From: Thioalkalivibrio sp. ALJ24 | GTDB taxonomy: Bacteria > Pseudomonadota > Gammaproteobacteria > Ectothiorhodospirales > Ectothiorhodospiraceae | Assembly: GCF_000377785.1 (NCBI RefSeq) | Contig: NZ_KB898731.1 | Coordinates: 62,001 to 126,000, forward strand | Reading direction: 5' to 3' | DNA: 64,000 bases | Notes under the pieces: model-generated | The model's input: the letters and a program-made list of their open reading frames with translations, nothing else | Told to the model about the DNA's origin: nothing | The model's database searches: none | In this document: positions 7,200-29,591 of the stretch, piece after piece | How positions within the stretch are numbered: position 1 is the stretch's first letter | How the letters are laid out: every line of letters begins with the position of its first letter | Made by a program: the position numbers and the translations under genes

Positions 7200-7218
7200 A
7201 CAAACAGGGAGAATCGCC

Positions 7219-10463: not shown

Positions 10464-10467
10464 CCTC

Positions 10468-13449: not shown

Positions 13450-14860
13450 GTTCGTGCTCCTCGCACAGCGCCGCGTCCACCGCGGCATTCCAGGCCTCGG
13501 GCCCGATCCGTTCCAGCATGGTCTGCAACTCCTCTCCAGCATTGCGTTGACGGGCGAACGCCCGCTCCAGCGCCGTGATCCGGGCGCGCGCCTGTGCCGG
13601 GGCCAGCCCGCTCCATTCAAGGGCCGCACCGGGTCGCGAGCGCAGCACCACGGCATGGCCTTCCGGCCGCGCGATCCACTCGACCACCCCGGCTTCCGTC
13701 CGCGGCGGCGCCGCGCAGCGCTTGTCGCAGGCGGATACCTGCAGCCGCATCCCGCTCGCGGCCAGGGTCGGCATGCGCTGCACCAGCGCGGCGGCCTCGC
13801 TGCGCGCGGCGATGTGCGCCGAGGCGCAGCCCGGCTGCCCGACACAGGCATCCGCCGCCAGGCGCCGGTCGGCCGGCTCGGTCACCGCGCCCAGTTCCCG
13901 CAGCAGGCGCTGCAGCTCCGGAATGGCCTCCGCGGCCACGCCGGTCGCCAGCAGCGCCCGCCACGGCGTCAGGCGCAGACCGCCGCCGTGCGGCTCCAGC
14001 CACGCGGCCAGACGCTCCAGCCGGTCGGCGTCGATCACGCCGAACGGGAAGACCGCCCCCAGCCAGGCTCCGCCGGCCGCCGCACCGAGCCAGTCCCCGG
14101 CGCGCACCGGCGTGTCGGCGTGGGCGACCGCACCCGGCGTCTCCCCCTCCGAACCCGGCAGGCGCAGCGCCTCGCTCCCGGGCATGCCCAGCGCGTCACG
14201 CAGCCGTCCCGGCGGCGGATCCAGCACGACGCGCTGCTCGAGAAACGCGCGCAGGGCGCGCACCACCGCCTCCGGGGCGTGCTGCGCCGAGACCTCGCCG
14301 AGCGGGGTCGCCGTGGCCGCGGTGCCGCCGGCCGCCAGACGGAAACGAGGCCCCGCGCCGGCGAGCGGATCCAGACGCAGATCCGCCGGCACCCCGCGCA
14401 GCGAGGCACGCCCGCCACCGTCGACCACCACGCCCACCTTGGCCGGCAGACCCCGCAGCGCGGGCTCGTCGACGATCGCGGCGCTCACCGCGCGCGCCAG
14501 GGCCAGCACGTCCACCGCCTCCGGATCGAGGTCCGGCACCGGCGCCGCCAGCACGTTGCGCCGCGCCTCGCGCTCCGCCTGCGCATCCACCAGCCCGGTG
14601 GGGGCCAGGGCCGCGCGCGCCGCGTCCAGGTCGCCGGCCGCCACGCCGCGCAGCTGCAGGTTGCCGCGCAGGGTCAGTTCCAGTTCGCCGTTGCCCAGGC
14701 GCCGCGCGGTGTCCGCCAGCACCCGCGCGGCGGCCGCCCCCAGGCCCCCGATCGGGTGGCGCAGGCGCAGCAGATAGCCGTCCCCGGTGGCCATCGGCGC
14801 CGCCACCCCGGGACAGGCCCCGCGTACCCGCGGCGGCTGCGGCGCCGCCGGACGGTTCAT
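13436..14860 (-). CDS. cobG: Precorrin-3B synthase (oxygen-dependent, sulfite-reductase-like)
   Basis: This 474-residue protein has two ferredoxin-like/siroheme-fold repeats of the nitrite-sulfite reductase family and the iron-sulfur cysteine pattern CVGQPGC followed by SACDKRCA. CobG uses O2 to hydroxylate C20 and form the gamma-lactone of precorrin-3B, so its presence marks the aerobic branch of the pathway. N-terminal residues RGACPGVAAPMATGDGYLLR and LRGNLQLRGV are typical. A Pro/Arg-rich start gives ATG at 14860, overlapping the stop of the ABC permease gene by four bases. Confidence 0.92.
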   Translation of the reverse strand: MNRPAAPQPPRVRGACPGVAAPMATGDGYLLRLRHPIGGLGAAAARVLADTARRLGNGELELTLRGNLQLRGVAAGDLDAARAALAPTGLVDAQAEREARRNVLAAPVPDLDPEAVDVLALARAVSAAIVDEPALRGLPAKVGVVVDGGGRASLRGVPADLRLDPLAGAGPRFRLAAGGTAATATPLGEVSAQHAPEAVVRALRAFLEQRVVLDPPPGRLRDALGMPGSEALRLPGSEGETPGAVAHADTPVRAGDWLGAAAGGAWLGAVFPFGVIDADRLERLAAWLEPHGGGLRLTPWRALLATGVAAEAIPELQRLLRELGAVTEPADRRLAADACVGQPGCASAHIAARSEAAALVQRMPTLAASGMRLQVSACDKRCAAPPRTEAGVVEWIARPEGHAVVLRSRPGAALEWSGLAPAQARARITALERAFARQRNAGEELQTMLERIGPEAWNAAVDAALCEEHERDGD

Positions 14861-15642
14861 GAGCGCAGCCTCCGGCTGTGGGCCAGCAGATACCAGGCCC
14901 CGCCCGCCACCAGCACACAGGCGGCGGCCAGCACCGCGAAGGTCGTGGTCCAGGCGACCGCGCTGACCCCCAGCAGGCCGTGGCGGAAGCCCTCGATCAC
15001 GTAATAGAGCGGGTTCAGCTGCGCGATCCCCTGCCAGGGATCGGCCAGGCGCTCCACCGGATAGAACAGCCCGCCGAGATAGATCAGCGGGGTAAGCACA
15101 AAGGTGCTGATCACCGAGGTGTGGTCGAAGCTGCGCGCGTACAGGCCGTTGATCAGCCCCGCCAGCGAGAACAGCACCGCGGTCAGCAGCGCGATCCCCA
15201 GCACCGCCCCGGCGTGGTGCAGCTGCAGATCGCTGAACGGCAGCGCCACCGCCAGCACCAGCGCCCCGGCCAGCAGCCCACGCAGTACCCCGGCGGTGGC
15301 AAACCCGGCCACCAACAGCCACGCCGGCATCGGCGCCACCAGGATCTCCTCGATGTGGCGCTGCAGGCGCGCGCCGAACAGCGCGAGGCTGCTGTTGCCG
15401 TAGGCGTTGGTGACCACCGCCAGCATCACCAGGCCCGGCAGGATGAAGTCGGCATAGGGCACGCCGCCCAGGGTGCCGATCTCGCGCCCCACCAGATGCC
15501 CCAGCACCGCGAGAAACAGCACCGCGGTCACCAGCGACGGCAGCAGGTTCTGCACCCAGCCGCGCAGGAAGCGGCGCACCTGCTTCACCACCAGCCCGCG
15601 CCAGGCGTACCAGTACAGCGCGGCGTTGTGCAGCGGGCTCAT
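14857..15642 (-). CDS. ABC-2 type transporter permease
   Basis: A 261-residue membrane protein with about six hydrophobic helices. It shows the ABC-2/YadH-like layout: a basic N-terminal segment, then NLLPSLVTAVLFLAVLGHL, NAYGNSSLALFGARLQRHIE, SFDHTSVISTFVLTPLIYLG and QLNPLYYVIEGFRHGLLG. The last block, containing NPLYY, is typical of this permease type. It pairs with the ATPase gene immediately upstream (four-base overlap) and is equally coupled to cobG downstream. Its substrate is unknown; a place in the middle of a corrinoid operon suggests a corrinoid precursor or metal-related export, which is inference. Confidence 0.88.
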   Translation of the reverse strand: MSPLHNAALYWYAWRGLVVKQVRRFLRGWVQNLLPSLVTAVLFLAVLGHLVGREIGTLGGVPYADFILPGLVMLAVVTNAYGNSSLALFGARLQRHIEEILVAPMPAWLLVAGFATAGVLRGLLAGALVLAVALPFSDLQLHHAGAVLGIALLTAVLFSLAGLINGLYARSFDHTSVISTFVLTPLIYLGGLFYPVERLADPWQGIAQLNPLYYVIEGFRHGLLGVSAVAWTTTFAVLAAACVLVAGGAWYLLAHSRRLRS

Positions 15643-16580
15643 GCCGCGCCCTCCCCGCCGCGCTCGCGCAGCAGTTCGAGAAAGCGGGTCTCCAGCCGAT
15701 TGCCCTTCTCGCGCAGCCCGGCGATACGCGCCCCGGCGGCGGTCAGTTCGGCGAACACCGGGTTCAGCTCGGTGCCGCGCGGCACGTCCACCTCCAGGGT
15801 GTGCGCATCCACCGGGCGCAGGGTGCCGGCGGACAGCGCGAGCTCCCCGGGCCGCGCCAGCGGCTCTGCCAGTTCCACCACCAGGGTCTGGAAGCGCAGC
15901 CCGCGCAGCAGCTCGCCGGTGCCGCCGCGGGCGATGATGCGCCCGCCATCGATGATGGCCAGCTCGCGGCACAGGCGCTCGGCCTCCTCCAGGTAATGCG
16001 TGGTCAGCAGGATGGTCACGCCATCCGCGTTCAGTTCCTGCAGCAGGGTCCAGAGGTCGTGGCGGGCCTCCAGGTCGACGCCGGCGGTGGGTTCGTCCAG
16101 CACCAGCAGGCGCGGCTGGTGCACCAGCGCGCGCGCCAGCAGCAGGCGCCGCTTGAAGCCCCCGGACAGCCCCCAGGCGGTCTGCCGGCGGCGGTCGGCC
16201 AGCCCCAGGCGCTCGCACAGTTCGTCGGTGCGGCGGCGCGCCTGGCGCGGCGACAGTCCGTAGTAGGCGCCCTGGGTCTCGATGATCTCGCCCACCGGCT
16301 CGAAGCTGTTGAAATTGACCTCCTGCGGCACCAGACCGACCAGACGCCGCGCCGCCACCGGCTCGCGCGCGACATCGTGGCCGAAGATCCGTACCGTGCC
16401 GCGCTCCAGGCGCAGCAGCGAGGTCAGCAGCCCGATCAGGGTGGTCTTGCCGGCGCCATTGGGCCCCAGCAGGCCGAAGAACGCCCCCGGCTCGACGTGC
16501 AGGCTGACCCCGTCCAGGCCGACCCGGCCACCGCGATAGCGCTTGGCGAGGTCGTCGATGGCGATGGCCGGGGCGCTCAT
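15639..16580 (-). CDS. ABC transporter ATP-binding protein (ABC-2 system)
   Basis: A 313-residue ATPase with Walker A GPNGAGKTT at 39-47, Q-loop VGLVPQEVNFN, signature LSGGFKRRLLLARAL, Walker B LLVLDEPTAGVD and switch histidine in LLTTHYLEEAERLC. The roughly 90-residue C-terminal extension is like that of YadG/NodI-type ATPases that serve ABC-2 permeases. The start overlaps the cbiD stop, and its stop overlaps the permease start, so the pair is translated as part of the cob operon. It is not of the CbiO/EcfA type used for cobalt or B12 import. Confidence 0.92.
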   Translation of the reverse strand: MSAPAIAIDDLAKRYRGGRVGLDGVSLHVEPGAFFGLLGPNGAGKTTLIGLLTSLLRLERGTVRIFGHDVAREPVAARRLVGLVPQEVNFNSFEPVGEIIETQGAYYGLSPRQARRRTDELCERLGLADRRRQTAWGLSGGFKRRLLLARALVHQPRLLVLDEPTAGVDLEARHDLWTLLQELNADGVTILLTTHYLEEAERLCRELAIIDGGRIIARGGTGELLRGLRFQTLVVELAEPLARPGELALSAGTLRPVDAHTLEVDVPRGTELNPVFAELTAAGARIAGLREKGNRLETRFLELLRERGGEGAA

Positions 16581-17737
16581 CGCGTCACCCCCGTGGCATG
16601 GTCGTGGTCGCCGGCCGTCCCCACCACCCGGCCCTGGCGATCCACCGCGACCACCTCCAGCGTGGTGTCGGGCAGCTGATAGCTGCGCGCCTGTTCCAGG
16701 GCCAGCGCCGCCATGCGGTCCCCCAGTGCCACGCCGGCCTCCTGACAGGCGGCGAGGGCCTCGATGCTGGTGTTGCAGCCGCGGATCCGCCGCGCCAGCG
16801 CGGCATCCGCCCCGGCGGCCGCGGCGGTGGCGGCGATGAAATCCAGGTCGATCGCGCTGCTGCGGCTGTGGGTATCCGGGTGCCCGGCGGCGAACTTGCC
16901 CAGCTTGGCGAAGCCCGCCACCAGCGCGACGCGCGGCAGCGGCTGGCGCCGCAGGTACTTGAGCGCCGCGCCGAAGAAATCGCCCATCTCCACCAGCCCC
17001 ATCTCGTCAAGCCCGTAGCGCTCGCTCGCGGTGCGTTCGCTGGTGCCGCCGGTGCAGCAGGCGACCTGCCGCAGGCCGTTGGCCCGCGCCACGTCGATGG
17101 CCTGGTGGATGGAGGCGATGTAGGCGGAACAGGAGAAGGGCCGCACGATGCCGGTGGTGCCGAGGATGGAGATGCCGCCGAGGATGCCGAGGCGCGGATT
17201 CATGGTGCGCCGGGCGATGCGTTCGCCGCCATCCACGCCGAGCGTGACCCGGAACCCGCCCGCATGGTCCAGCTCGCGGGCCAGGCGTTCGAGGTGGTCG
17301 GTGATCATCCGCCGCGGCACCGGGTTGATCGCCGGTTCCCCCGGCGGCAGCACCAGACCGCTGCGGGTCACCGTGCCCACCCCGGGCCCGGCGACGAAGG
17401 TCACCCCCGCATCCGGCCGTGGTTCCACCCGCGCGCGGATCCAGGCGCCGTGGGTGGCATCGGGATCATCGCCGGCGTCCTTGATGACCGCCGCCTCGGC
17501 ACCGCCCGGAACCCGCTCCAGCGACGCCAGCGCCAGGCTGACCACCTGGCCACGCGGCAGCACCACCTCCTGGCTCGTGGTCGCGCCGCCGCCCAGCGCC
17601 AGCCGCGCCGCCCCCAGGGCCGCCGCGGTCGCGCTGGTGCCGGTGGTCAGGCCGGTGCGCAGCGGCGCGGTGCCGTCGCGGCTCTCCGCGCGCATCGCTC
17701 CGGGTTGCGCGCCCGGCTCGGGTACGGGCTCAACCAT
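16577..17737 (-). CDS. cbiD: Cobalt-precorrin-5B C1-methyltransferase
   Basis: The 386-residue protein is CbiD: LRTGLTTGTSATAAALGAAR near the N-terminus, IKDAGDDPDATHGAWI, GVGTVTRSGLVLPPGEPAINPVPR, LGILGGISILGTTGIV and KLGKFAAGHPDTHSR are all family blocks. CbiD methylates C1 in the anaerobic pathway, a step done by CobF in the classical aerobic route. Its presence next to cobG makes this locus a hybrid. The ATG at 17737 follows GACGGGATCC and overlaps the cobA stop by eight bases. Confidence 0.95.
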   Translation of the reverse strand: MVEPVPEPGAQPGAMRAESRDGTAPLRTGLTTGTSATAAALGAARLALGGGATTSQEVVLPRGQVVSLALASLERVPGGAEAAVIKDAGDDPDATHGAWIRARVEPRPDAGVTFVAGPGVGTVTRSGLVLPPGEPAINPVPRRMITDHLERLARELDHAGGFRVTLGVDGGERIARRTMNPRLGILGGISILGTTGIVRPFSCSAYIASIHQAIDVARANGLRQVACCTGGTSERTASERYGLDEMGLVEMGDFFGAALKYLRRQPLPRVALVAGFAKLGKFAAGHPDTHSRSSAIDLDFIAATAAAAGADAALARRIRGCNTSIEALAACQEAGVALGDRMAALALEQARSYQLPDTTLEVVAVDRQGRVVGTAGDHDHATGVTR

Positions 17738-18545
17738 GGATCCCGTCAACCGCGCCGAGGTCCATCGCGGGCGCCCCGGAAGCATCGCCCGTCAGCCGGG
17801 CGCGTTCGCCCACCACGTCGCCCACGATCAGCAGGCTGGGCGACTCCAGCGCGAGCGCCGCGGTGCGCCCGGGCAGGTCTCCCAGGGTGCCGGCGACCAC
17901 GCGCTGCCCCGGCCGCGTCCCGTGCTCGATGATGGCGGCGGGCCGCGTGGCCGGGGCGCCGGCGGCGACCAGCCCGGCACAGATCTCCGCCAGCGGGTTC
18001 AGCCCCATGTAGATCACCACTGTCTGTCGCGGGGCGGCCAGCGCCTCCCAGTCCAGCTCGGTAATGCCGTTGCGCCGGTGCGCGGTCACGAACTGGCAGC
18101 GATGGGCATGATCGCGGTGGGTCAGCGGGATGCCGGCGAACGCCGCGCAGCCGCCGGCCGCGCTGATGCCGGGGATGACCCGCACCGGGATGCCGGCCGC
18201 CGCCAGTGCCGCCGCCTCCTCGCCACCACGGCCGAAGACATACGGATCTCCGCCCTTCAGCCGCACCACGTAACGCCCCTCGCGGGCGCGTTCGATCATC
18301 AGCGCGTTCAGCTCCTCCTGGCGCAGGCTGTGGTTGGCGCGCGCCTTGCCCACGTAGCAGCGTTCGGCCTGCGGACTGGCCATCGCGAGGATCGCCTCGG
18401 GGATCAGGCGGTCGTGCAGCAATACCTCGGCATCGCGCAGCGCCGCGGCCGCGTCCAGCGTCAGCAGCCCGGGATCACCCGGCCCGGCGCCGACCAGATC
18501 CACGCGGCCGGCGGCCGGCGTGCTGTCCGTGAACGCCCGGCTCAT
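17730..18545 (-). CDS. cobA: Uroporphyrinogen-III C-methyltransferase (SUMT)
   Basis: A 271-residue SUMT that makes precorrin-2 from uroporphyrinogen III. Blocks: VDLVGAGPGDPGLLTLDA, VLLHDRLIPEAIL, YVVRLKGGDPYVFGRGGEEA, IRVIPGI-like VRVIPGISAAGGCAAFAGIP and YMGLNPLAEICAGLVAAG. There is no CysG dehydrogenase/chelatase domain, so this is the monofunctional form. ATG overlaps the cobB stop codon (ATGA). It feeds cobI in the same operon. Confidence 0.95.
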   Translation of the reverse strand: MSRAFTDSTPAAGRVDLVGAGPGDPGLLTLDAAAALRDAEVLLHDRLIPEAILAMASPQAERCYVGKARANHSLRQEELNALMIERAREGRYVVRLKGGDPYVFGRGGEEAAALAAAGIPVRVIPGISAAGGCAAFAGIPLTHRDHAHRCQFVTAHRRNGITELDWEALAAPRQTVVIYMGLNPLAEICAGLVAAGAPATRPAAIIEHGTRPGQRVVAGTLGDLPGRTAALALESPSLLIVGDVVGERARLTGDASGAPAMDLGAVDGIHG

Positions 18546-19870
18546 GACGCGAACAGGGCTGCGGCCGCCTCCGGATTGGAGGGGAACCAGGCGTGCAGGT
18601 AGGTGGCGGTCAGCCGGCCGTCGCGGTAGACCGCCTCGCCGGTGGAACCGGCGCCGCGGGCACGGGTGCAGTGCGCGACAGGTTCCAGCCCGACCTCGGC
18701 CCGGGTGTGGTGGAAGGTATGACCGCGCAGCTCGCCCTCCGGCAGCGGCGCCGCCTGCAGCCCGAGGCCCTGCAGCTTGTCCTCCAGACGCGCATGCCCC
18801 GGCAGCAGACCGGCCATCGGCGCGGCGTGGCCGTCGCGGTCCGCCAGCTCTTCCAGCAGGTAGAGGAAGCCGCCGCACTCGGCCAGGAGCGGCCGGCCGG
18901 CCGCGTGATGCGCGGCCAGGTCCGCCTTCAGGCCGGTGTTGGCCGCCAGTGCCCCCAGGTGCAGCTCGGGATAGCCGCCCGGCAGCCACACCGCATCCAC
19001 CTCGGGCAGGCGGTCGCCGGCCACCGGGGAGAAGAACTCCAGGCGCGCGCCCAGCGCACGCAGGAACTCGAGGTTGCCCGGATAGGTGAAGGCGAACGCT
19101 GCGTCGCGGGCAATGCCGATGCGCAGCCCGTCCAGCCGCGGGGCCCGTTCGGTCCCGGAGTGCGAGTCGGGCTCCGCACCGGCGTCCGCTTCGGGGGCGA
19201 AAGCCACCGGGGCCGGCAACTCGGTCACCCCGGCCTCGGCGATCGCCTGCGCGGCGGCCTCCAGACGGGCGTCCAGGTCGGCGACCTCGCCGGCCTGCAC
19301 CAGCCCGAGGTGGCGGTCGGGCACGCTCAGGGCCTCGTTGCGCTGGATCGCGCCGAAGAAATGCACGCCATCCGGGGTGGCATCGCGCAGCATGCGCCCG
19401 TGCCCCGGGCTGCCGGTGCGGTTGGCGATCACTCCGGCCAGTGGCATCTCCGGGCGGTAGGTCGCCAGCCCGTGCACGATGGCGCCGAAGGTCTGGGCCA
19501 TGCCGCCGGCATCCACCAGCGCCAGCACCGGCAGGCCGAAGGCGACCGCCAGGTCCGCGCCGGAGGGGTCGCCGTCGAACAGGCCCATGGAACCCTCGAC
19601 CAGGATCAGGTCGGCATCCTGCGCGGCGGCATGCAGCTTCGCCCGGCAGGCCGCCTCGCCCACCATCCACAGGTGCAGCGGGTCCACCGGATGCCCGGAG
19701 GCCTGCTCCAGGATCATCGGGTCGAGGAAATCCGGGCCGGTCTTGAACACCCGCACCCGGCGCCCCTGGTTGCGATGGTAACGCGCGATCGCGGCGGTAA
19801 CCGTGGTCTTGCCCTGGCCCGAAGCCGGCGCCGCCACGAACGCGGCCGGGCAGCTCACCGGGGCACTCAT
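18542..19870 (-). CDS. cobB: Cobyrinic acid a,c-diamide synthase (hydrogenobyrinate synthase)
   Basis: A 442-residue ATP- and glutamine-dependent amidotransferase. The P-loop region PASGQGKTTVTAAIA lies at residues 15-29, LILVEGSMGLFDG is the CobB/CbiA block, and the class I glutaminase domain in the second half has its Cys in LLAECGGFLYLLEEL. In the aerobic pathway it amidates hydrogenobyrinic acid before cobalt insertion; CbiA does the same on the cobalt form. With CobG and CobH present the aerobic substrate is likelier, but sequence alone does not decide. The frame upstream of 19870 is non-coding. Confidence 0.92.
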   Translation of the reverse strand: MSAPVSCPAAFVAAPASGQGKTTVTAAIARYHRNQGRRVRVFKTGPDFLDPMILEQASGHPVDPLHLWMVGEAACRAKLHAAAQDADLILVEGSMGLFDGDPSGADLAVAFGLPVLALVDAGGMAQTFGAIVHGLATYRPEMPLAGVIANRTGSPGHGRMLRDATPDGVHFFGAIQRNEALSVPDRHLGLVQAGEVADLDARLEAAAQAIAEAGVTELPAPVAFAPEADAGAEPDSHSGTERAPRLDGLRIGIARDAAFAFTYPGNLEFLRALGARLEFFSPVAGDRLPEVDAVWLPGGYPELHLGALAANTGLKADLAAHHAAGRPLLAECGGFLYLLEELADRDGHAAPMAGLLPGHARLEDKLQGLGLQAAPLPEGELRGHTFHHTRAEVGLEPVAHCTRARGAGSTGEAVYRDGRLTATYLHAWFPSNPEAAAALFAS

Positions 19871-20615: not shown

Positions 20616-21224
20616 TCACAGTTCGATTCCCTTCTGCGCCTTGATGCCGGCCTGGAAGGCGTGCTTGACGACCTGCAGTTCGGTCACCGTGTCGGCGGCG
20701 TCGATCAGGCCCTGCGGGGCCGCGCGGCCGGTGGTGATCACGTGCTGCATCTCGGGGCGCGCGGTAAGGTCCCGCACCACCTCGTCGACATCCAGATAGC
20801 CGTACTTCAGCGCGATGTGCAGCTCGTCCAGCAGCACCAGGTCGATGGCCGGATCGGTCAGCATGTCGCGGGCGTGGGCCCAGGCCTCGCGCGCCGCCTC
20901 GCCGTCCTTGTCGCGGTCCTGGGTCTCCCAGGTGTAGCCCTCGCCCATCACGTAGTACTGCACGTTGTCCTGGCGCTTGAAGAAGGCCTCCTCGCCGGTG
21001 GCGAAACGGCCCTTGATGAACTGCACGATGCCCACCTGCATGTCGTGGCCCAGGGCACGCGCCGCCATGCCGAAACCGGAGGAGCTCTTGCCCTTGCCGT
21101 TGCCGGTCAGCACCAGGAACACACCGCGTTCCTCCTGCGCCTCGGCGATCTTGCGGTCCACCACTTCCTTCTTGCGCGCCATGCGCTCGGCGTGGCGGCG
21201 CGCGCGTTCGTCCTGTTCACTCAT
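20616..21224 (-). CDS. cobO: Cob(I)yrinic acid a,c-diamide adenosyltransferase (CobO/BtuR type)
   Basis: A 202-residue P-loop enzyme that adds the 5'-deoxyadenosyl group to cob(I)alamin or its precursors. The nucleotide loop is LTGNGKGKSSSGFGMAARALG; IDLVLLDELHIALKYGYLD and HVITTGRAAPQGLIDAADTVTEL are CobO/BtuR/CobA family blocks. The start follows AAAGGACC. It is one of two unrelated adenosyltransferases in this locus, the other being the PduO-type gene at 26694. The gene lies 53 bases downstream of the DUF2149 gene in the same direction. Confidence 0.95.
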   Translation of the reverse strand: MSEQDERARRHAERMARKKEVVDRKIAEAQEERGVFLVLTGNGKGKSSSGFGMAARALGHDMQVGIVQFIKGRFATGEEAFFKRQDNVQYYVMGEGYTWETQDRDKDGEAAREAWAHARDMLTDPAIDLVLLDELHIALKYGYLDVDEVVRDLTARPEMQHVITTGRAAPQGLIDAADTVTELQVVKHAFQAGIKAQKGIEL

Positions 21225-21277: not shown

Positions 21278-21577
21278 TCAGTCGCCACCCTCGATCAGCA
21301 GCATGCGGCCGGTCTCCGGGTCGCGGTAGACCTGGCCCATGGATTCGAACCCGGAGCCGGCCTCGCCGGCACCGTCGGGCAGTTCGGGAACCTCCTCGCC
21401 GGCCTCGACGTCCACGCCACCGGCTTCCTGCTGTTCCAGTCCGTCGTCGGCGGCCACCAGGGCCACGATCAGGCCGACCGCGAACACCAGCATGATGTCC
21501 GCGAGGTTGGCCAGCGGCCCCATGGGTTCCTCGTCCGGCGCGTCGAACCGGCTGGCACGGTAGTGCGGGACCCTCAT
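21278..21577 (-). CDS. DUF2149 protein, ExbD/TolR-like motor subunit candidate
   Basis: A 99-residue protein with a short cytoplasmic N-terminus and one transmembrane helix (about residues 22-43, containing LADIMLVFAVGLIVALV), followed by a periplasmic acidic tail ending RDPETGRMLLIEGGD. It belongs to the DUF2149 family by its gene context and the C-terminal motif. The Asp at position 27 at the start of the helix (NLADIMLV) lines up with the proton-carrying Asp of ExbD/TolR (IDVMLVL). It overlaps the ExbB/TolQ-like gene upstream by four bases. Together they probably form a proton-driven complex for the CobN-like protein. Confidence 0.8.
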   Translation of the reverse strand: MRVPHYRASRFDAPDEEPMGPLANLADIMLVFAVGLIVALVAADDGLEQQEAGGVDVEAGEEVPELPDGAGEAGSGFESMGQVYRDPETGRMLLIEGGD

Positions 21578-22014
21578 GCCGCCTCCATGCGTTCCATCGC
21601 CCCGTCATACCAGCGCCGGCGCAGGCGGCCGAGCAGGAAACCGAGGATACCGATCAGCAGGCCCAGGACCGTGGTGTTGAACGCCACGGTCACCGCCTGC
21701 GCCAGTACGTCGAGTTCGCCCCGGCCCATGGCCGCCAGACCCGGTCCCAGCGGGATCAGCGTCCCCATCAGCCCCAGCATCGGGCCGATGCGCGCGAGCA
21801 GATCGGCACGGTCGATGCGCCGCCGCGCCAGGAACGCCAGGCGTTCGGCATTGCCGCTGGCCTCCAGGCGCCGCACGCCGCCGGTACGCTCGCCGATGGC
21901 CTGTCCCAGCTCCCAGACGGCCACCGCGACCAGCACCAGCAGGGCGATGATCACCGGCTCCAGCAGCCAGCTCACCACCGTGTCCATCAGTTCCATCGTG
22001 ATCGAGAACGACAT
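21574..22014 (-). CDS. MotA/TolQ/ExbB-type proton channel protein
   Basis: A 146-residue protein with three predicted helices: one near residues 13-38, a second in IGPMLGLMGTLIPLGPGLAAM and a third in FNTTVLGLLIGILGFLLGRL. The P-x-LGL-x-GT block and AFNTTVLGLL correspond to the conserved TM2/TM3 region of ExbB/TolQ, and a basic cytoplasmic loop with ERLAFLARRRIDRADLL lies between TM1 and TM2. It is shorter than ExbB and TolQ. It lies 35 bases after the CobN-like gene and overlaps the DUF2149 gene, so the three form a module. Confidence 0.88.
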   Translation of the reverse strand: MSFSITMELMDTVVSWLLEPVIIALLVLVAVAVWELGQAIGERTGGVRRLEASGNAERLAFLARRRIDRADLLARIGPMLGLMGTLIPLGPGLAAMGRGELDVLAQAVTVAFNTTVLGLLIGILGFLLGRLRRRWYDGAMERMEAA

Positions 22015-22049
22015 TCGCGTTACCTCATCAATCTTTGTTCAGCGCTTCC

Positions 22050-25000
22050 TTAACGGCGCCGGCCGGCAACGATGCCTCCGAGCAGCAGCACGAACAGCAC
22101 CCCGGAGACCAACCAGGGGATCCACTGCATGGCCTGTGCCTCGCCCGATTCGCGGCCATCCTCGGCCTCCACCGCCTCGACCTCGGCCGGCTCCGGGGCC
22201 TCCTGCATCTCGCGGGCATCCGGCTGTTCCAGCGGCTGGATCTCGGCCATACGCGCCGGGTCGGTCTCGGCGGGCTCGCGTTCGATCTGCGCGGCCTCGC
22301 GCACGGCCTCGAAGGCCTCGGCCAGTTCCGCGTCGTCCAGACGTTCGGCGACTTCGTCGAGCACGGGATGATCCGGCCGCGTATGACCGCTGCCGGGCAG
22401 GCCGTGCTCGGCCACCAGTTCGGCGAAGTCCTCGGACAGCGCCTGCAGGACCTCGGGGTCGGCATCCCAGAACTCGCGGCTCGCGGCCACCAGCAGCGTG
22501 GCCTGCATGTGCGTCTTCACGTGCACCTTGTGGCCGTCTTCCAGGAATTCGTCGAGCCCCAGGTCGTGCCGGTCCTGCAGGTAGACGTCGTGTACGTGGT
22601 CCCATACCTCGGAACCGACCACGTGGGGGCTGGTCGCCTGCCAGCCCCACAGGTTGTTGACGAAATCGGCGGTGAAGGTCCGCGCCCCGGCATAGCCGTG
22701 GTCCATCAGCGGCTCGATCCACTGCGGGTTCAGGTTCTGCCCGTGCAGCTCGGTCATCAGCGCGCGCTGCAGGCTCTCCACGCGCGGGTTGTCGGGGTCG
22801 GCATGCTGCAGGATGCGATTGTCCGGCGGGGTTCCGCGGGCGTGTTCCACCGCGGCCGACAGACCGCCCTGGAAGTCGAAGCCGTCGTCGTTGTCCAGCA
22901 GGCCGTAGAGATGGCTGGCGCGGCCCAGATAGGTGCGGCCCACGCCTTCCAGACGTGCATCGAAGGCCTCGTGGGCGGGCTCGCCGCGGGTCCCGGCGCC
23001 ATAGGCATGCCCCATGCGCCGGGCATAGGCGTCGGCCAGCTCGGCCCGATCCTCCCAGGCCCCGGAGCGGTCGGCCAGACGGTTCACCCCGGCGCCATAG
23101 GCCCCCGGCGCGGTGCCGAACACCCGCAGCGCCGCCTGACGGCCGGCCTCGGCCGCCTCCACGCCATCGGATTTCAGCGCCCGGGTATCGGCTACCCACT
23201 GGCTCGCCACGTCGTTGCGCTCCAGCGGCTCCCGGCCCGGATCCCTCAGGTCCTCGCTCAGGGGTTTCAGGGCCACGTCCAGCGCTTCGTCCAGGTGGGG
23301 ATATTCGGCGCGGATGGTCTTCGACGAGCCGTCCAGCGCCAGGCGCGCGGCCTGGTCCAGCCAGGCCAGCTGATCCTCGTAGAGGTCGCGGAACAGGCCC
23401 GAGGTGGTGAACAGGGCATCCCGCCGACGCTCACGATCGGCCTCGTCGAGATCCATCAGCTTCAGGCCCTCGACGATCCCGCGGCTGTTCCAGTCGGGCT
23501 TGACCCCCAGCATGTCGAGTCCGAAGGCCACCATCACGCCTTCGTCGCGCACGGTGTCGGAGGCCCACAGCACCACGGCCTCGCTGCCGTCGGCCTCGGG
23601 GTCGCCCTGCTCGCGGGCATCGGCCGCCAGGTCCTGGCCCAGGCTCCAGGCGATGCGAGTGGGCACCAGATCGGAGGACAGGGCGTGGAAATTGCGCCCG
23701 GTGGGCAGCACATCCGGGGTGCGCACCGGATCGTTGCCGCGGCTCGGCGGCACGAAGCGGCCCTCGAGCCCGGCCAGCAGGTTCGCTCCCTCATTGGCGG
23801 GCGAGCCCTCCAGGTCTTCGCGCATCGCCGCGTCCGGCTCCGCGTCGCCGGCCATGGAGTCGAGCATGGTGTCCACGGCCTCGCCATCCCAGTCGCGGGC
23901 CAGCACATGCAGCCCGAGGGGCATGTGCTCCTCCTGCATGTCGGTCACCCAGTGACCGATGTCGTGGACCATCAGCTCCTCGTCGAGGTCCGCCAGGCCA
24001 CCCTCGTGAGCCGAGTCATGGTCATGCCCGTGAGCGTGATCATCGCCATGGTCGTGCTCGCGGTCATGACCATGCTCCCGGTCCTCCTCATGACCGTGGT
24101 CACCATCGTCCTCGTGTCCATGATCATGGTCGTGGTCGTGGTCATGATCGGCCATCGCCTCTTCGATGGTCTCGCTCAGACCCAGCTCCTCGATGCGTTC
24201 CAGCAGCGTGTCCGCGGCCCGGGCCTGAGTCGGCGAGTCCGGATCGGTGCTCGCCTCATAGCTTTCGACCAGCTGGCGCAGTTCCAGCAGGTCGTCGTAG
24301 AGCTCGGTGGTCGCCAGCGCCGGCGTCAGATGGCTGATGATCACGCCCTGGGCGCGACGCTTGGCCTGGATGCCCTCGCCCACGCCATCGACGATGTAGG
24401 GGTACAGCACCGGCAACGGGCCGCCGAGGAGTTCCGGATAGTCGTCCGGGGCCAGCCCGGCGCGGCGCCGCGGCAGGAATTCGCGGGTGGAGTGGCGCCC
24501 CATGTAGACCAGCGCGTCCGCCTCGAAATGGTCGCGCAGCCAGTGGTAGAAGCCCACGTACTGATGGGTGGGCGGGAACGTGGTGTTGGCGTGCAGCAGG
24601 CGCTCGCTGACCTCCCAGCCCCGCGGCGGCTGCGGGCCGATGAACACGTTGCCGTATTCGATCCCGGGGAAATGCATCGCCCCGTCATGGGTCATGGCCT
24701 CGCCCGGGGGTTCGCCCCAGCCGCTCAGGCCCGGGATGCCGGTGCGTGTCAGGGCATCGCGCAGGGATTCCGCCTGCGCCAGATCCCCGCCGCCGTCCAG
24801 CAGCGCCTCCCATTCGCGCTCCAGTTGATCGATCAGTGACTGCGCACGCTCCTGTGCATCGTGCGAGTGGTTCTGCACCATGTGGCGCAGGTCGCCGATG
24901 CCGTTCTCCAGCGCGCGCTCGGCGGCGTCGGTCGCGCCCAGCTCGCGGGCCTTGAGCAGCCGCTCGTGCAGATAGCCCACCGGACCGTGCACCAGCTCGG

Positions 25001-26534
25001 CCTGTACGGTGTCCGGCAGGGTCTCGAAGTAAGAACGATAGGTCTCCGCATCCAGGCTGGCCACGCGGTCGGCGATGTCGGCGGCCGCGTCGGCCTGTTC
25101 GGGCAGGTTGACGCCGCGGTCCTGGATATCGTCCAGCAGGGCCTCGGCATCTTCCGGGTGATCCCCGGTGTCGTAGCCCGCGTCGCGCAGCAGATCCAGG
25201 GTCTCCAGCAGCGACTCGGGGACATCCAGCTTGTCGGCGCCGATGTTGTGGCGCCCCGGCGGATGGTTGTAATAGACGATGGCCACGCGCTTGTCGGCAT
25301 TGGAGCGCTCGCGCAGGCGCTGCCAGCGGGCCATGCGTTCGGCCACCGCGTCGACCCGTTCCCGGATCGGCTCGGAGAGCATCAGGCGCACGCCGGTGCG
25401 GTCGTCGATCTCGGGCTCGCCGGCGGCGGCCAGCACCGTGGGCTGGCTCACGCCCTGCAGTTCGGGCATGGCCACCTGGTAGTGGACGCTGTCCCGGGGA
25501 ACGCCGTCATGTGCGACCCGCCATTCGTCCTCGCTGCGCGAGGCCAGGCGCAGCCCCTTGACCACCGGCACGTCCAGCTCGCCCAGCGCCCCGGCAACCG
25601 CCTCGCGGTTACCGCCGCCCCCGATCACGAAGTCCTGCAGGGAGACGATGCCGGCGAGATCGGCGGGTGCGGCCGACTGCGCCAGGTCCTCCACCGCCTG
25701 CCGGCTGGCGCCACCCCAGCGCGCGAGCACGCCGAAGCACTGCAGATCGCGCGATTCCAGCGCGTCGCAGGCGGCGTCCAGCAGTGCACGGTCGCCCGGC
25801 CGGTCGCCGGTGTCCAGGTCCAGCAGGGCGACCGCCGGGCGTTCGTCCAGCTCCATTGCGGCGGCGTCATCCACCGCGTGGCCGTCGTGGTAGAAACGGA
25901 TGGTCTCGCGCGGATCCGGCTGCGGCACGTCGATGTCGTGGCCGGCCTCGGCGGCCAGCCAGCGCATCAGACCCTCCATGCTCTCCGGCGTACGCCCCTG
26001 ATAATACGCCCGGCCGGTGAGCCAGTCGGCCTGCTCGGGGAACGCCTGCCGCTGCTCCCGCAGGTGTTCGCGCGGATCCTCGTCGGCATCCGGGTTCTCC
26101 GCCAGCTCGGTCCGTTCGTCGTCTTCCAGACCGGCCAGCGGCTGCTCGCCATCCAGGCGCGACAGGGACGTCAGCTCCCGATCGCTGTTGATCGCCAGCA
26201 GCGGAACTTCGGCGTCCGGGCCGCGCTCGCGCAGCAGCCGCGTCAGCCGGCCGACCTCGTCGCCCAGCACCGCCGCCACCAGCACGGCGTCCGCGTCGTC
26301 CCACAACGCGGTGACCTCGGAGTCATCCTTGTCGGCCAGCTGCTCCGGGGTGCGCAGGCGCACCTCGGACTCGGGGAAGGCCTCGAGGAAACGGTGGGCC
26401 CCGGCCGTGACCTCGGCGGCGGAGCGGTCCGAGACGATGCCGAGGATATGCGGGGACGGGTCCGTGTCCGCCGACGGAACCCCCGGCAGCAGCAGCGCCA
26501 GCAACAGGGGGTAGCGTTTTTTCCATGTACTCAT
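22050..26534 (-). CDS. Exported, membrane-anchored CobN-like chelatase with His-rich insert
   Basis: This 1494-residue protein has the CobN/magnesium-chelatase-H fold: VAIVYYNHPPGRHNIGADKL, FPGIEYGNVFIGPQPPRGW, ALVYMGRHSTREFLP, YPYIVDGVGEGIQAKRRA, HLTPALATTELYDDL, LPTGRNFHALSSDLVPT and ADFVNNLWGWQAT are all in family order. Unlike cytoplasmic CobN it starts with a signal peptide (KKR, hydrophobic core, cleavage near PSA-DTDP at residue 22). It ends with a single transmembrane helix and basic tail (about 1471-1494, GRRR last). Residues 797-843 hold about 17 histidines alternating with Asp/Glu/Gly, a probable metal-binding loop. The catalytic part should therefore face the periplasm. The start ATG has only a weak ribosome binding site; a GTG three codons upstream is possible. 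CobS and CobT are not in the window. The layout resembles HmuS-type CobN homologues linked to heme dechelation in Bacteroidetes. Confidence 0.9.
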   Translation of the reverse strand: MSTWKKRYPLLLALLLPGVPSADTDPSPHILGIVSDRSAAEVTAGAHRFLEAFPESEVRLRTPEQLADKDDSEVTALWDDADAVLVAAVLGDEVGRLTRLLRERGPDAEVPLLAINSDRELTSLSRLDGEQPLAGLEDDERTELAENPDADEDPREHLREQRQAFPEQADWLTGRAYYQGRTPESMEGLMRWLAAEAGHDIDVPQPDPRETIRFYHDGHAVDDAAAMELDERPAVALLDLDTGDRPGDRALLDAACDALESRDLQCFGVLARWGGASRQAVEDLAQSAAPADLAGIVSLQDFVIGGGGNREAVAGALGELDVPVVKGLRLASRSEDEWRVAHDGVPRDSVHYQVAMPELQGVSQPTVLAAAGEPEIDDRTGVRLMLSEPIRERVDAVAERMARWQRLRERSNADKRVAIVYYNHPPGRHNIGADKLDVPESLLETLDLLRDAGYDTGDHPEDAEALLDDIQDRGVNLPEQADAAADIADRVASLDAETYRSYFETLPDTVQAELVHGPVGYLHERLLKARELGATDAAERALENGIGDLRHMVQNHSHDAQERAQSLIDQLEREWEALLDGGGDLAQAESLRDALTRTGIPGLSGWGEPPGEAMTHDGAMHFPGIEYGNVFIGPQPPRGWEVSERLLHANTTFPPTHQYVGFYHWLRDHFEADALVYMGRHSTREFLPRRRAGLAPDDYPELLGGPLPVLYPYIVDGVGEGIQAKRRAQGVIISHLTPALATTELYDDLLELRQLVESYEASTDPDSPTQARAADTLLERIEELGLSETIEEAMADHDHDHDHDHGHEDDGDHGHEEDREHGHDREHDHGDDHAHGHDHDSAHEGGLADLDEELMVHDIGHWVTDMQEEHMPLGLHVLARDWDGEAVDTMLDSMAGDAEPDAAMREDLEGSPANEGANLLAGLEGRFVPPSRGNDPVRTPDVLPTGRNFHALSSDLVPTRIAWSLGQDLAADAREQGDPEADGSEAVVLWASDTVRDEGVMVAFGLDMLGVKPDWNSRGIVEGLKLMDLDEADRERRRDALFTTSGLFRDLYEDQLAWLDQAARLALDGSSKTIRAEYPHLDEALDVALKPLSEDLRDPGREPLERNDVASQWVADTRALKSDGVEAAEAGRQAALRVFGTAPGAYGAGVNRLADRSGAWEDRAELADAYARRMGHAYGAGTRGEPAHEAFDARLEGVGRTYLGRASHLYGLLDNDDGFDFQGGLSAAVEHARGTPPDNRILQHADPDNPRVESLQRALMTELHGQNLNPQWIEPLMDHGYAGARTFTADFVNNLWGWQATSPHVVGSEVWDHVHDVYLQDRHDLGLDEFLEDGHKVHVKTHMQATLLVAASREFWDADPEVLQALSEDFAELVAEHGLPGSGHTRPDHPVLDEVAERLDDAELAEAFEAVREAAQIEREPAETDPARMAEIQPLEQPDAREMQEAPEPAEVEAVEAEDGRESGEAQAMQWIPWLVSGVLFVLLLGGIVAGRRR

Positions 26535-26693: not shown

Positions 26694-27260
26694 TCAGCCG
26701 CCGGAGGCCTCGCGCCGCGCGGCGGGCTGCCACAGGACCTCGGAGCCGTTCTCGTGGCGCGCCAGCACGCGGCAGAACACGAACAGCAGGTCCGACAGAC
26801 GATTGATGTAGGCCAGCGAGCTCGGCCGCAGGGCCTCGTGGTGGTTGACCGCGACCAGCCGCCGCTCGGCGCGGCGGCAGACGGTGCGGGCAATGTGGCA
26901 ATCCGCGGTGGCCGGGCCGCCGCCCGGGAGGATGAACTCCTCCAGCGGCGGCAGCTCGTCATTGAAGCCTTCGAGCTCGACATCCAGGCGTTCCACCGAC
27001 GCCTCCGGCAGCGCCTGATACCCCGGCACCGCCAGCTCCGCGCCCAGATCGAACAGCTCGTGCTGCACCCGGGCGAGGGAACCCCGAACGTCTTCGGGCA
27101 GCTCGTGCACCAGCACACGCCCGATCACGCTGTTCAGCTCGTCCACGTCACCAAAGGCCTCGACGCGATGCGAGTCCTTGTCCACGCGCGAACCGTCACC
27201 CAGACCGGTACGCCCCTCGTCACCCGTGCGGGTCGCGATCTTCGAAAGTCGATTGCCCAT
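26694..27260 (-). CDS. Cob(I)alamin adenosyltransferase, PduO/ATR type
   Basis: A 188-residue protein of the PduO-type adenosyltransferase family, a four-helix-bundle trimer. Blocks: KIATRTGDEGRTGLGDGSRV (ATP-binding N-terminus), VEAFGDVDELNSVIG, HELFDLGAELAVPG, EEFILPGGGPATADCHIAR, CRRAERRLVAVN and YINRLSDLLFVFCR. It makes adenosylcobalamin from ATP and cob(I)alamin. It lies four bases after the receptor gene, so it is directly co-expressed with uptake, and 160 bases before the CobN-like gene. Its function duplicates CobO in the same locus. Confidence 0.95.
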   Translation of the reverse strand: MGNRLSKIATRTGDEGRTGLGDGSRVDKDSHRVEAFGDVDELNSVIGRVLVHELPEDVRGSLARVQHELFDLGAELAVPGYQALPEASVERLDVELEGFNDELPPLEEFILPGGGPATADCHIARTVCRRAERRLVAVNHHEALRPSSLAYINRLSDLLFVFCRVLARHENGSEVLWQPAARREASGG

Positions 27261-27264: not shown

Positions 27265-29160
27265 TTACCTCTGCTGCTGATAGCGCAGTTTCACGAACGC
27301 GCCCATGCCGGGGTTGTTGTAGCCACCCTGGGTCTCGTAATCCCGATCGAAGACGTTGGTGAGGGAGCCCTCGACCGTCCATTCCGGATCCAGTTCATAA
27401 GCCGCGCGCAGATCCAGGGTCCCGTAGCCCGAGAGGCGCGTCTCGTTGTCGCCGCGGTCATAGCTGCGACTCCGGGCCCGGATTGTGCCGCCCAGGGAAG
27501 CGTCTCCGAACTGACGGTCCAGGTCGAAACGCGCCGAGACCGGAGGCCGGCGCGCCAGCTCGTTCCCCGTATCCCGGTCCTCGGTATCCAGCAGGGTCAG
27601 CGAGACCCGCGAATTCCACGGGCCCAGATCGTGGCCACCTTCGAGCTCCAGACCGCGAATGCGCGCTTCCCTGACGTTGCGAGGCTCGTTTATATCCGTG
27701 TCCGGGTTGCCGTCATCGCAATTCACCACACAACGACTTTGAATCAAGTCATCTACGTTCGTTTCAAATACTGAAACATCCACGTATGCAAGACTGGCCG
27801 AGTACCTCGCACCGAGTTCAAAAGTTTCCGACTCTTCCGGATCCAGGTCCGGATTGCCGAATCCGGGGAAATACAGGTCGTTGAATGTCGGGGCCTTGAA
27901 CGCCGTGCCATAGCTGGCCCGTAGCCGCAGGGCATCCGTCGCCTGAAGACCCCAGGCGACCTGCCCGGTGGTCTTGTCGCCGAACTCTTCGTTATCGTCG
28001 TAGCGCAGCGAGCCTTCCAGGTCGTGGTTGCCGATCTCGGTGCGCAGGACCGAATACACGCCGACGTTGTAGCGCGAGTCCTCGTCGTAATCCGTCGAAC
28101 CGTCAACCCGGTCTTCGTAGGCATCCACCCCGGCGATCAGGTCGGTGCGCTCCCCGACGCGGACATCATTGCGCCAGGCCGCCTGATCCCGCCGTGTGTC
28201 GAAACGGTCAACACCGCCGCCCAGGACGCCGCCTTCGGTCACGTCGTCACTCTCATCCCGCGACTGCCCGAGCGTGACTTCCGTGTCCCAATGGCGGGTC
28301 ACGGGAATACGCACGCCTGCCCGCAACGCGGCATGCACGAAATCCGTATACGCCCGATCGTACGGTCCCAGAATGTCGACAGGATTGGCAGGATCGGATT
28401 CATCTGCGTCGTATTCCGAGCGGCCCTCCGAATACAGCACGTTGCCGAAGAACTCGAGCCCATTGGTGAGACGGTGCGACAGCTTGCCCGCCAGCGAGGT
28501 GTTGTCATAGCCGTCGGGGTCATCATCACCGACATCGTCCTGGACGTTGATGCCGTCGGTGTCGTAGCGGCTCAGGGACAGGCTGTAGCGGGTGCGTTCG
28601 GTGCCGCCGGCGATCCCGGCTCCGGCCTCGCGGGTACCGAAGGAGCCCAGCCCGAAGAAGGCGTTCACGCGCGGCGGTCCCTCTTCGCCCTCGCGACTGA
28701 AGATCTGGGTCACCCCGCCGATCGCATCGGACCCGTAGATGGAAGTGCGCGGCCCGCGCACGATCTCCACGCGGTCGACCTCCTCGGGTGGCAAGAACCT
28801 CCAGCTGGCGCCTCCGCTGGTCGCCGACCCCATGCGCACGCCATCGATCAGCATCAGGTGGTGGTCGGATTCGGTGCCGCGCAGGCGCACGCTCGACTGT
28901 TTGCCGAACGGACCGGCGCTGGAAACCGAGACCCCGGCGCGCCCTTCCACCAGATCGGTGAACTGGCGCGGCTGCAGGCGCTCGATCTCTTCGCGGTCGA
29001 TGACCGTCACCGAGGCCAGGGCCTCGTCCACGGTCTGGCTCAGGCGGGTCGCGGTGACCTGCACGGGCTCCAGGGTCACGGCACCGCTGTCCGGTGCCTC
29101 TTCGGCCAGAGTCGGGGAGGCCGCCATCACGATGGCGGCGGAAAGAATGCTGCGTTTCAT
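27265..29160 (-). CDS. btuB: TonB-dependent vitamin B12 receptor (BtuB-like)
   Basis: A 631-residue outer-membrane receptor with a signal peptide (cleavage near TLA-EEAP), a TonB-box-like VTLEPVQVTAT segment and a plug domain (LQPRQFTDLVEGRAGVSV, SVRLRGTESDHHLMLIDGVR, VDRVEIVRGPRTSIYGSDAI). A 22-strand-type barrel follows, with the characteristic FKAPTFNDLYFPGFGNPDL block and a C-terminal LTNVFDRDYETQGGYNNPG. The size, the plug motif RGPRTSIYGSDAIGGV and the cobalamin riboswitch upstream identify it as a corrinoid receptor. The start follows GGGAGATCCGAAGAC. The C-terminus ends in YQQQR rather than a terminal aromatic residue, which is unusual for a barrel. Confidence 0.92.
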   Translation of the reverse strand: MKRSILSAAIVMAASPTLAEEAPDSGAVTLEPVQVTATRLSQTVDEALASVTVIDREEIERLQPRQFTDLVEGRAGVSVSSAGPFGKQSSVRLRGTESDHHLMLIDGVRMGSATSGGASWRFLPPEEVDRVEIVRGPRTSIYGSDAIGGVTQIFSREGEEGPPRVNAFFGLGSFGTREAGAGIAGGTERTRYSLSLSRYDTDGINVQDDVGDDDPDGYDNTSLAGKLSHRLTNGLEFFGNVLYSEGRSEYDADESDPANPVDILGPYDRAYTDFVHAALRAGVRIPVTRHWDTEVTLGQSRDESDDVTEGGVLGGGVDRFDTRRDQAAWRNDVRVGERTDLIAGVDAYEDRVDGSTDYDEDSRYNVGVYSVLRTEIGNHDLEGSLRYDDNEEFGDKTTGQVAWGLQATDALRLRASYGTAFKAPTFNDLYFPGFGNPDLDPEESETFELGARYSASLAYVDVSVFETNVDDLIQSRCVVNCDDGNPDTDINEPRNVREARIRGLELEGGHDLGPWNSRVSLTLLDTEDRDTGNELARRPPVSARFDLDRQFGDASLGGTIRARSRSYDRGDNETRLSGYGTLDLRAAYELDPEWTVEGSLTNVFDRDYETQGGYNNPGMGAFVKLRYQQQR

Positions 29161-29297
29161 GTCTTCGGATCTCCCGGCGAGCCGCCCGCACGCCGCTGGT
29201 TCACGGGGATCGTGCTGGCGCGAGGGAGAAGACGACAACGCATTCCCGGGAGGGAACGGCCATCCGTCTCGCACGCCCTCCGCGTGCCGCACGACCA

Positions 29298-29519
29298 TTC
29301 CCCGGCCGGTCTCCGGGCTGACGAGCGGGGCATGCCCGGCCGGCGGCGCCTTCCCGTGTCCGTGACACAGTGGCCTTGAGCCGCCAGCCTCCGGGATCCA
29401 TGGCCGAAGGATTCCGGCCCGGATCCGCGCTCGATCACCGTTGCGGGGGCAGCGCCGGATTCGCGCCAGGGCGCTCACCGGACTTCCCGTTTAACCCGGC
29501 GGGGGACCGCCGAGGCACC
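29298..29519 (-). promoter_or_regulatory. Cobalamin (B12) riboswitch upstream of the btuB/cob operon
   Basis: Read on the minus strand, the blocks CGGTGCCTCGG, AACGGGAAGTCCGGTG, AATCCGGCGCTGCCCCCGCA, GCCACTGTG (B12 box) and CAGCCCGGAGACCGGCC follow in the right order and spacing. It lies 137 bases upstream of the receptor gene. All genes down to cobM run the same way apart from cobK, so this element may govern the whole locus. The leader 29161-29297 contains TCTCCC, which could pair with GGGAGA at the receptor's ribosome binding site, but only over six bases. The rest of 29520-29591 shows nothing recognisable. Confidence 0.92.
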
Positions 29520-29591
29520 GAGGAACGGGGCGAAGACTACATGAGGGATGGCTGATTTTCCACCCGGCAGGTCCGGCATGCCGCGCGACGT

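Follow-up and report, generated by a model that had tools for sequence, protein, structure and literature searches.

The 64,000-nucleotide stretch of Thioalkalivibrio sp. ALJ24 studied here (contig NZ_KB898731.1, positions 62,001 to 126,000; hereafter the window) carries a cobalamin operon with a CobN-like chelatase that appears to be exported and anchored in the membrane beside a putative proton motor made of a TolQ/ExbB-like and a DUF2149 protein. The reading favoured here, to which about an even chance is given, is that of a periplasmic, proton-driven cobaltochelatase that loads metal-free corrins and to which bacteria that build the corrin ring export it. The complete detour is proposed more tentatively, as somewhat short of an even chance: the ring would be made in the cytoplasm, exported by an ABC-2 transporter, loaded with cobalt in the periplasm at the expense of protons and re-imported by BtuFCD, and relatives lacking ring synthesis would live on the rings of their neighbours. 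The argument draws on export signals, gene sets, regulation and searched absences, as far as sequence can indicate them.

At the level of the protein itself, the CobN-like product matches PF02514 over its full length in three stretches (cut-off 24.5 bits), which places it, at the level of sequence families, in the class I chelatase superfamily; its best segment is 94% identical to the CobN of Thioalkalivibrio halophilus HL17. The solved structures nearest to it in a profile search of the PDB are HmuS (487 bits) and CobN (479 bits). A signal-type segment opens the protein and a hydrophobic helix closes it (maximum 19-residue Kyte-Doolittle value 2.36), followed by RRR. According to the positive-inside rule, such charges behind a C-terminal helix would place the body of the protein in the periplasm, and for this reason the periplasmic location claimed by the original prediction, together with the signal peptide, anchor and CobN family blocks, is supported.

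The same architecture characterizes a wider set of relatives. A sample of 369 genomes of the class Gammaproteobacteria gave PF02514 in 41, and wide loci were fetched for 32 of these, the window included and one in two fragments; the nine left out were for the most part pieces of contigs or additional cytosolic copies. From a scan of named genomes the best 79 of 284 relatives were taken as loci, and these comprise Thioalkalivibrio, Halomonas-type genera, Marinobacter, Pseudomonas, Methylophaga, Nitrospirota, Nitrospinota, Myxococcota and others. In a tree of 62 rows (36 of the 95 group A sequences, 9 of group B and 17 cytosolic), built by a quick method with midpoint root and some long branches and leaving HmuS out, the clade containing the window protein, named group A, had a support of 100, a second clade, group B, had 99, and the two together were separated from the cytosolic rows with 98. 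Among 39 proteins inspected, a signal-type N-terminus and a C-terminal helix were both found in 18/18 of group A and 6/6 of group B, and neither in 15/15 cytosolic CobN or BchH proteins. In a few of the 95 group A proteins, namely L106, L131, L132, L155, L156, L160 and L165, hydropathy gave no clear signal segment; there the contig is truncated or use of the longest frame obscures the start.

The active site is equally well preserved. His681 and Glu720 are present in all 121 aligned sequences, and Asp1217 is invariant in the 95 group A sequences (87 distinct), so that the three residues form a common signature of the group. Asp1217 lies at the position of the HmuS-specific His1209 (motif LSLDHxxEFMGG), a position occupied by Asp in 9/18 of the cytosolic set (which includes L177, group B by tree) and by 6 Asp and 2 His in the group B set (n=8). 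Because this position is Asp in 95/95, heme is disfavoured as the substrate. The HmuS region with the heme ligands Met79 and His254 fell outside the aligned parts. The gap between alignment blocks into which a His/Asp-rich insert of the window protein falls also holds the Met-rich insert of HmuS; the His/Asp-rich insert was rejected as a hallmark of the family, since 60-residue His counts of 15-26 were confined to Thioalkalivibrio (8/8), as opposed to 5-8 in 10 other group A proteins.

Regarding the putative motor, both partners scored above the cut-offs of their families. The AlphaFold model of the TolQ/ExbB-like protein reaches a mean predicted local distance difference test (pLDDT) of 90 and its best Foldseek matches are Escherichia coli ExbB chains (probability 1.00, E 0.009; none at or below 0.001), and a PDB profile search returned MotA/PomA alone (E 0.026 and 0.38); Thr85, Thr114 and Thr115 are invariant in 12/12 sequences. 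The single helix of DUF2149 carries Asp27 within the membrane, invariant in 13/13. These results uphold an ExbB-like partner and a one-helix DUF2149 protein as originally described. DUF2149 as a provable ExbD homologue was rejected: the PDB profile search gave no significant match to ExbD and the model is poor (pLDDT 67). An ExbD-like role is suggested by Asp27, by the operon and by analogy with the known HmuV, and the pair would replace an ATP-driven motor by a proton-coupled one.

Conserved co-occurrence of the three genes had been named beforehand as the test that could overturn the proposal, which withstood it. A total of 97 group A loci were gathered (the window, L052-L068 and L092-L170), two without a full CobN and seven with too little downstream sequence, so that triplet counts rest on 88 loci (80 distinct; some genomes are in both collections). 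CobN, TolQ and DUF2149 occur together in the window and in 17/17 group A wide loci (the two G356 fragments apart). In the large set DUF2149 rather than TolQ was counted, the position filter having passed over TolQ in 8 loci that have it, and DUF2149 adjoins CobN in all 69 loci (62 distinct) outside Marinobacter with more than 2.5 kb downstream; the C-terminal helix is clear in 67 of these and borderline in 2, both from Nitrospinota. In L060 a thiamine pyrophosphate riboswitch (12847-12977, +) lies after the triplet and before a TonB receptor-like gene. On the Runella slithyformis plasmid pRUNSL01 (L211), TolQ, DUF2149 and a CobN-like gene are found among the hydrogenase maturation genes hypF, hypC, hypD and hypE, an arrangement that hints at a nickel counterpart of this system.

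A periplasmic CobN homologue linked to ExbB and DUF2149 is, in the available text of several reports, an already known kind of system (PMC12583661, PMC13227078, PMC10434189, PMC9431628, PMC4542158, PMC8531726, PMC13083405, PMC3403914). The closest parallel is HmuS with HmuU (ExbB-like) and HmuV (DUF2149) in the hmu operon of Bacteroidota, which shares the CobN fold, signal peptide, terminal membrane helices, periplasmic side, both partners and an upstream TonB receptor (PMC12583661, PMC13227078, PMC10434189, as far as their accessible text goes). HmuS differs in its heme operon, its catalytic His1209 in place of the group A Asp and its Met-rich insert, and the accessible parts of its accounts mention neither a cobalamin riboswitch nor cobalamin genes, whereas the window has a cobalamin riboswitch, BtuB-like receptor, PduO, BtuR and CobB instead of the hmu genes. 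The Zur-regulated PA1922-PA1925 of Pseudomonas aeruginosa likewise combine a TonB receptor with CobN-like, ExbB/ExbD-like and DUF2149 proteins (PMC9431628, PMC4542158), but are under zinc control in the text available; their placement in group B is a guess, as they were compared by description only. A plasmid cluster of Geobacter (Trichlorobacter) lovleyi has TolQ, DUF2149 and CobN between TonB receptors and near cobalamin genes, and the missing CobS/CobT was already remarked by its authors; as described in the part available, it differs in belonging to an anaerobic pathway with CbiK (PMC3403914), and by tree it falls in group B. CobN-CobS-CobT or CobN-ChlID with CobW share PF02514, the late-insertion place and the active-site His and Glu, but are cytosolic, ATP-driven and supplied by CobW, whereas the window CobN is exported, no CobT or ChlID-type partner was found for it and no CobW-like gene lies in the stretches. 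Exported and anchored as it is, and with no such partner found, it is not a member of the classical CobNST systems; nor, by the His1209 position and gene context, does it belong to the HmuS family, although its mode of action is probably that of a motor-linked periplasmic chelatase of HmuS type.

The link to cobalamin proved stronger than first proposed. Of 27 group A loci tested, 23 have a cobalamin riboswitch ahead of CobN or of its operon; one also precedes the ring-gene operon in 3/3 (L191-L193), and none was found in the four group B loci tested. A recognised cobalamin gene lies within the stretch in 71/95 group A loci. Halomonas-type operons run BtuB, CobN, TolQ, DUF2149, BtuF, BtuC, BtuD, CobB, BtuR (BtuF with 186 and 168 bits against PRK03379, under the cut-off of 234), and a Marinobacter plasmid carries a CobN, CobB, BtuR and CobQ set with BtuFCD-type genes and BluB. 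Group A is a cobalamin-riboswitch class of periplasmic CobN that was not found described: the open-access literature gave no description of such a class, of the ABC-2 link or of periplasmic cobalt insertion, which is not proof of absence.

Several gene counts bear on the relation of this CobN to ring synthesis. Of 77 genomes screened for CobH (PF02570), 50 carry group A CobN, 14 with CobH and 36 without; G007 was set aside from the latter (contig break inside the cob cluster), leaving 35 ring-less genomes. In Thioalkalivibrio, where 19 of 25 genomes were tested for both, CobH occurs in 7/11 genomes with group A CobN and 0/8 without (Fisher 0.013, rows related). Apart from Azotobacter G417, the ring-makers (13 of the 14) have no CobN besides that of group A; for G002, G009 and G011 the assignment to group A with full triplet comes from reading the loci. 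The source genome of the window (2.81 Mb, scored 100% complete) is one of the 13, having this CobN alone genome-wide. The claim that CobS/CobT partners are lacking could be confirmed in part: no CobT match was obtained genome-wide in the window's genome, CobS being covered through AAA-related models and not its own family, and the ChlID-type model TIGR02442 gave weak AAA matches of at most 42 bits (cut-off 779). A CobT or ChlID-type partner elsewhere in this genome was rejected, these weak matches being, by eye, MoxR-like proteins, ComM halves, sigma-54 regulators and ClpX. In G000, the apparent ComM-like halves lie on different contigs (C4:316473 and C9:121767; L005, L004), and the first passes into sequence unrelated to it, which would fit the insertion of an element.

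This pattern extends to the other ring-makers. TIGR02442 stays at or below 45 bits in 13/13 with group A CobN alone and reaches 311-807 bits in 7/7 with cytosolic CobN only and 338 in G417, although only G050 passes the cut-off. CbiK was found in none of the 13, as opposed to weak matches in 5/7 with cytosolic CobN, and the CbiX match in the window's genome is ferrochelatase-like by eye; early cobalt insertion was accordingly rejected. Since CobG is present in 13/13 ring clusters (of these, the window, L191 and L193 were scored against the curated cut-off and all three exceed it), a late-insertion route is indicated. A genome of the same family, G130, has CobH and a single PF02514 gene, whose product falls among BchH-like proteins.

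A second feature shared by these clusters is a possible route for the ring out of the cytoplasm. An ABC-2 ATPase and permease lie between cbiD and cobG/cobH in 13/13 group-A-only ring clusters, in several of which there are 4-base overlaps both with cbiD and between the two genes, and the pair is also found in the ring cluster of Halospina, Vreelandella and Halovibrio, where this cluster stands apart from the CobN operon. The permease profile was found in 0/10 other ring clusters fetched, namely those of G050, G181, G080, G295, G302, G345, G388 and G417 (cytosolic CobN) and G130 and G221 (without); as a CobG-like gene is present in four of these, the like-for-like comparison is 13/13 vs 0/4. 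The imported corrinoids originally proposed as substrate would hence be half of the picture, ring-makers having this exporter as well. A CobW-like P-loop protein, in five cases with CxCC, was seen in 6/10 genomes with cytosolic CobN (L087, L089, L090, L091, L197, L209) and in 0/109 group A stretches, a count that refers to a short pattern scanned in those stretches. According to the available text of PMC7689651, cobW is as a rule a neighbour of cobN in aerobic gene clusters and provides cytosolic cobalt; that it is missing from the group A stretches fits insertion outside the cytosol.

From these elements, we infer the chemistry, its direction, the substrate, the proton coupling and the cargo of the exporter as follows. 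An exported class I cobaltochelatase, held by its C-terminal helix beside the ExbB/TolQ-like and DUF2149 pair, would insert Co2+ in the periplasm into metal-free corrins of the hydrogenobyrinate type, the pair standing in for the CobS/CobT or ChlI/ChlD ATP motor. The metal-free corrin would have two ways into the periplasm, BtuB for rings from outside the cell and the ABC-2 exporter for those made in the cytoplasm. BtuFCD would then import the cobalt corrinoid, and CobB, BtuR and others would complete it; one BtuFCD-like set is present elsewhere in the window's genome (L185). In the more tentative reading, ring-less relatives such as many Halomonas-type bacteria and Marinobacter would use metal-free or unamidated rings from neighbours. 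CobB has a use only where the ring still lacks its a,c-amides, and it accompanies group A CobN in the same stretch in 18 of the 35 ring-less genomes. CobN, CobB, BtuR and CobQ are adjacent steps after the metal-free ring (PMC7689651, in the part available, and general background). The direction of cobalt transfer, left undecided by the original prediction, is now favoured to be insertion over removal, from the retention of CobB and the sole CobN of the 13 ring-makers, and because free cobalt is of no help to B12 supply without ring synthesis.

Several observations weigh against this reading and are considered here together with its alternatives. HmuS, the best-matching characterised relative by profile, removes metal in the available account (PMC12583661), and an HmuS-like demetallase that takes cobalt from imported corrinoids in the periplasm, as iron is taken from heme, would have the same architecture; the Zur control of module relatives in P. 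aeruginosa (PMC4542158, PMC9431628, in their accessible text) and the nickel-hydrogenase genes beside the Runella copy suggest a theme of metal extraction. Such a demetallase is nevertheless considered unlikely: released cobalt would be of little B12 use to the 35 group A genomes without CobH, many of these operons hold BtuFCD, BtuR and CobB, users of the intact corrinoid, and the His1209 position is Asp throughout group A. It is to be added that no CobB lies in the stretch fetched in the other 17 ring-less genomes. In Halomonas-type operons the protein is encoded between BtuB and BtuF, and CobN co-purifies with its corrin substrate (PMC7689651, available part); both would suit a corrinoid binder without metal chemistry, moved by the proton motor to hand its cargo from BtuB to BtuF. 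The invariance of the active-site His, Glu and Asp in all 95 group A sequences, the status of only CobN in 13 ring-makers having late-insertion genes, and triplets that lack a recognised Btu or Cob gene nearby (L145, L152, L156, L164 and L167 among them) make this improbable too.

Returning to periplasmic cobalt insertion, the cobalamin link has its gaps: no cobalamin riboswitch was found in four of the 27 loci (L056, L060, L147, L149, of which L147 has less than 1 kb upstream), and 24/95 loci are without a recognised cobalamin gene nearby. These gaps, and the iron, zinc and nickel contexts of related modules (PMC10434189 and PMC9431628 in the text available; Runella L211), would agree with another metal or tetrapyrrole, such as heme or zinc or nickel complexes, whose co-control with cobalamin genes is incidental; this is very unlikely given the riboswitch frequencies of group A and group B, the 71 loci with a cobalamin gene and the union of group A in one clade at 100. 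A further difficulty for proton-driven loading comes from Marinobacter, where 19/19 loci (18 distinct, more than 2.5 kb downstream) have a signal-type N-terminus and no C-terminal helix, TolQ or DUF2149. The motor is dispensable there and hence not always needed, and a soluble periplasmic form seems to persist without it. Because anchor and motor are both present or both gone across the 88 loci, the two are linked, being gained or lost jointly. The anchorless, motorless Marinobacter proteins are L104, L105, L107-L113, L115-L122, L128, L139, L159 and L212 (for L115 the sequence downstream is short); in some the C-terminus is a tail with cysteine, and the L212 copy is plasmid-borne.

The comparative counts call for caution as well. 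The 13 ring-makers amount to about three tree clades, so their counts are not independent and the ABC-2 association represents a handful of events at most; the ABC-2 proteins are exporters by family type (PF01061) and the corrin ring is their presumed cargo. Many of the 35 ring-less genomes are drafts or metagenome-assembled genomes, those from named loci being without a completeness value. The CobT and CbiX searches refer to the window's genome, and CobS was covered through AAA-related models; a further cytosolic chelatase may exist in these genomes. The favoured reading is, moreover, a deduction from sequence.

Features of the cobalamin operon in the window; starts of the receptor and BtuR genes are approximate
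Feature	Coordinates	Strand	Evidence
Cobalamin riboswitch RF00174, operon leader	29287..29537	-	69.3 bits, gathering 31.5
BtuB-like TonB-dependent receptor	27265..29166	-	plug and barrel Pfam domains; TIGR01779 522.7 bits
PduO-type corrinoid adenosyltransferase	26694..27260	-	TIGR00636 196 bits, above cut-off
CobN-like chelatase, predicted exported and membrane-anchored, 1494 aa	22050..26534	-	PF02514 807 bits
Signal peptide of CobN-like protein, extent by eye	26466..26534	-	signal-type N-terminal segment
His/Asp-rich insert of CobN-like protein, about residues 798-858	23961..24143	-	His counts, alignment blocks
C-terminal transmembrane anchor of CobN-like protein, about residues 1470-1491, RRR behind	22062..22127	-	hydropathy
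TolQ/ExbB-like proton-channel protein (predicted), 146 aa, three helices	21574..22014	-	PF01618 37 bits; model, fold search
DUF2149 protein, one membrane helix with Asp27, putative ExbD-like role	21278..21577	-	PF09919 33 bits
BtuR/CobO adenosyltransferase	20616..21224	-	PRK05986 278 bits, above cut-off
CobB, (hydrogeno)cobyrinate a,c-diamide synthase	18542..19870	-	PRK01077 415 bits, above cut-off
Uroporphyrinogen-III C-methyltransferase (SUMT)	17730..18542	-	TIGR01469 284 bits, above cut-off
CbiD, C1 methyltransferase, longest frame	16577..17785	-	TIGR00312 394 bits, above cut-off
ABC-2 exporter ATPase, 4-base overlap with cbiD	15639..16580	-	PF00005
ABC-2 exporter permease within corrin-ring cluster	14857..15630	-	PF01061 121 bits; PRK15066 305 bits
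CobG, precorrin-3B synthase, late-insertion marker	13436..14851	-	TIGR02435 249 bits, cut-off 234.8
CobH, precorrin-8X methylmutase	12808..13449	-	PF02570 238 bits
CobI, CobJ, CbiET, CobM; CobK within, + strand	7988..12811	-	CobM, CbiET by NCBIfam; CobI, CobJ, CobK named by eye

On the minus strand, the operon opens with the riboswitch, followed by BtuB-like receptor, PduO, CobN-like, TolQ/ExbB-like, DUF2149, BtuR, Uma2, CobB, SUMT and CbiD, and its 3' part continues with the ABC-2 ATPase and permease, CobG and CobH, then CobI, CobJ, CbiET and CobM. The receptor and adenosyltransferase described upstream of CobN were thus recovered; the TIGR01779 score of the receptor is below the cut-off of 599.7, yet this is its best match by a wide margin. 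An ARAGORN tRNA-His at 26860-26952 was taken as false, being antisense in PduO and absent from the Rfam matches. The Uma2-type nuclease-like gene between BtuR and CobB (19941-20540, -) is also present in a few relatives (L053, L067), and a 654-aa protein without Pfam match (29592-31556, -) is conserved 5' of the operon in Thioalkalivibrio. Within 5727-7785 (+), a second cobalamin riboswitch is followed by genes for a porin of OprO/P type (PF07396) and a cytochrome c' (PF01322), which is unusual for a B12 regulon.

If the favoured reading is true, a key step of B12 synthesis, the insertion of the metal, would be extracytoplasmic and would need neither cobalt in the cytosol nor CobW as a chaperone, and a proton-driven counterpart would exist to the ATP-driven motor of the chelatases. 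The point at which cobalt enters the ring would also be explained for those bacteria, Thioalkalivibrio, Halospina and their relatives, in which CobG is present and a ChlID-type partner is lacking, and metal-free corrins would be predicted to be shared goods in saline and marine communities.

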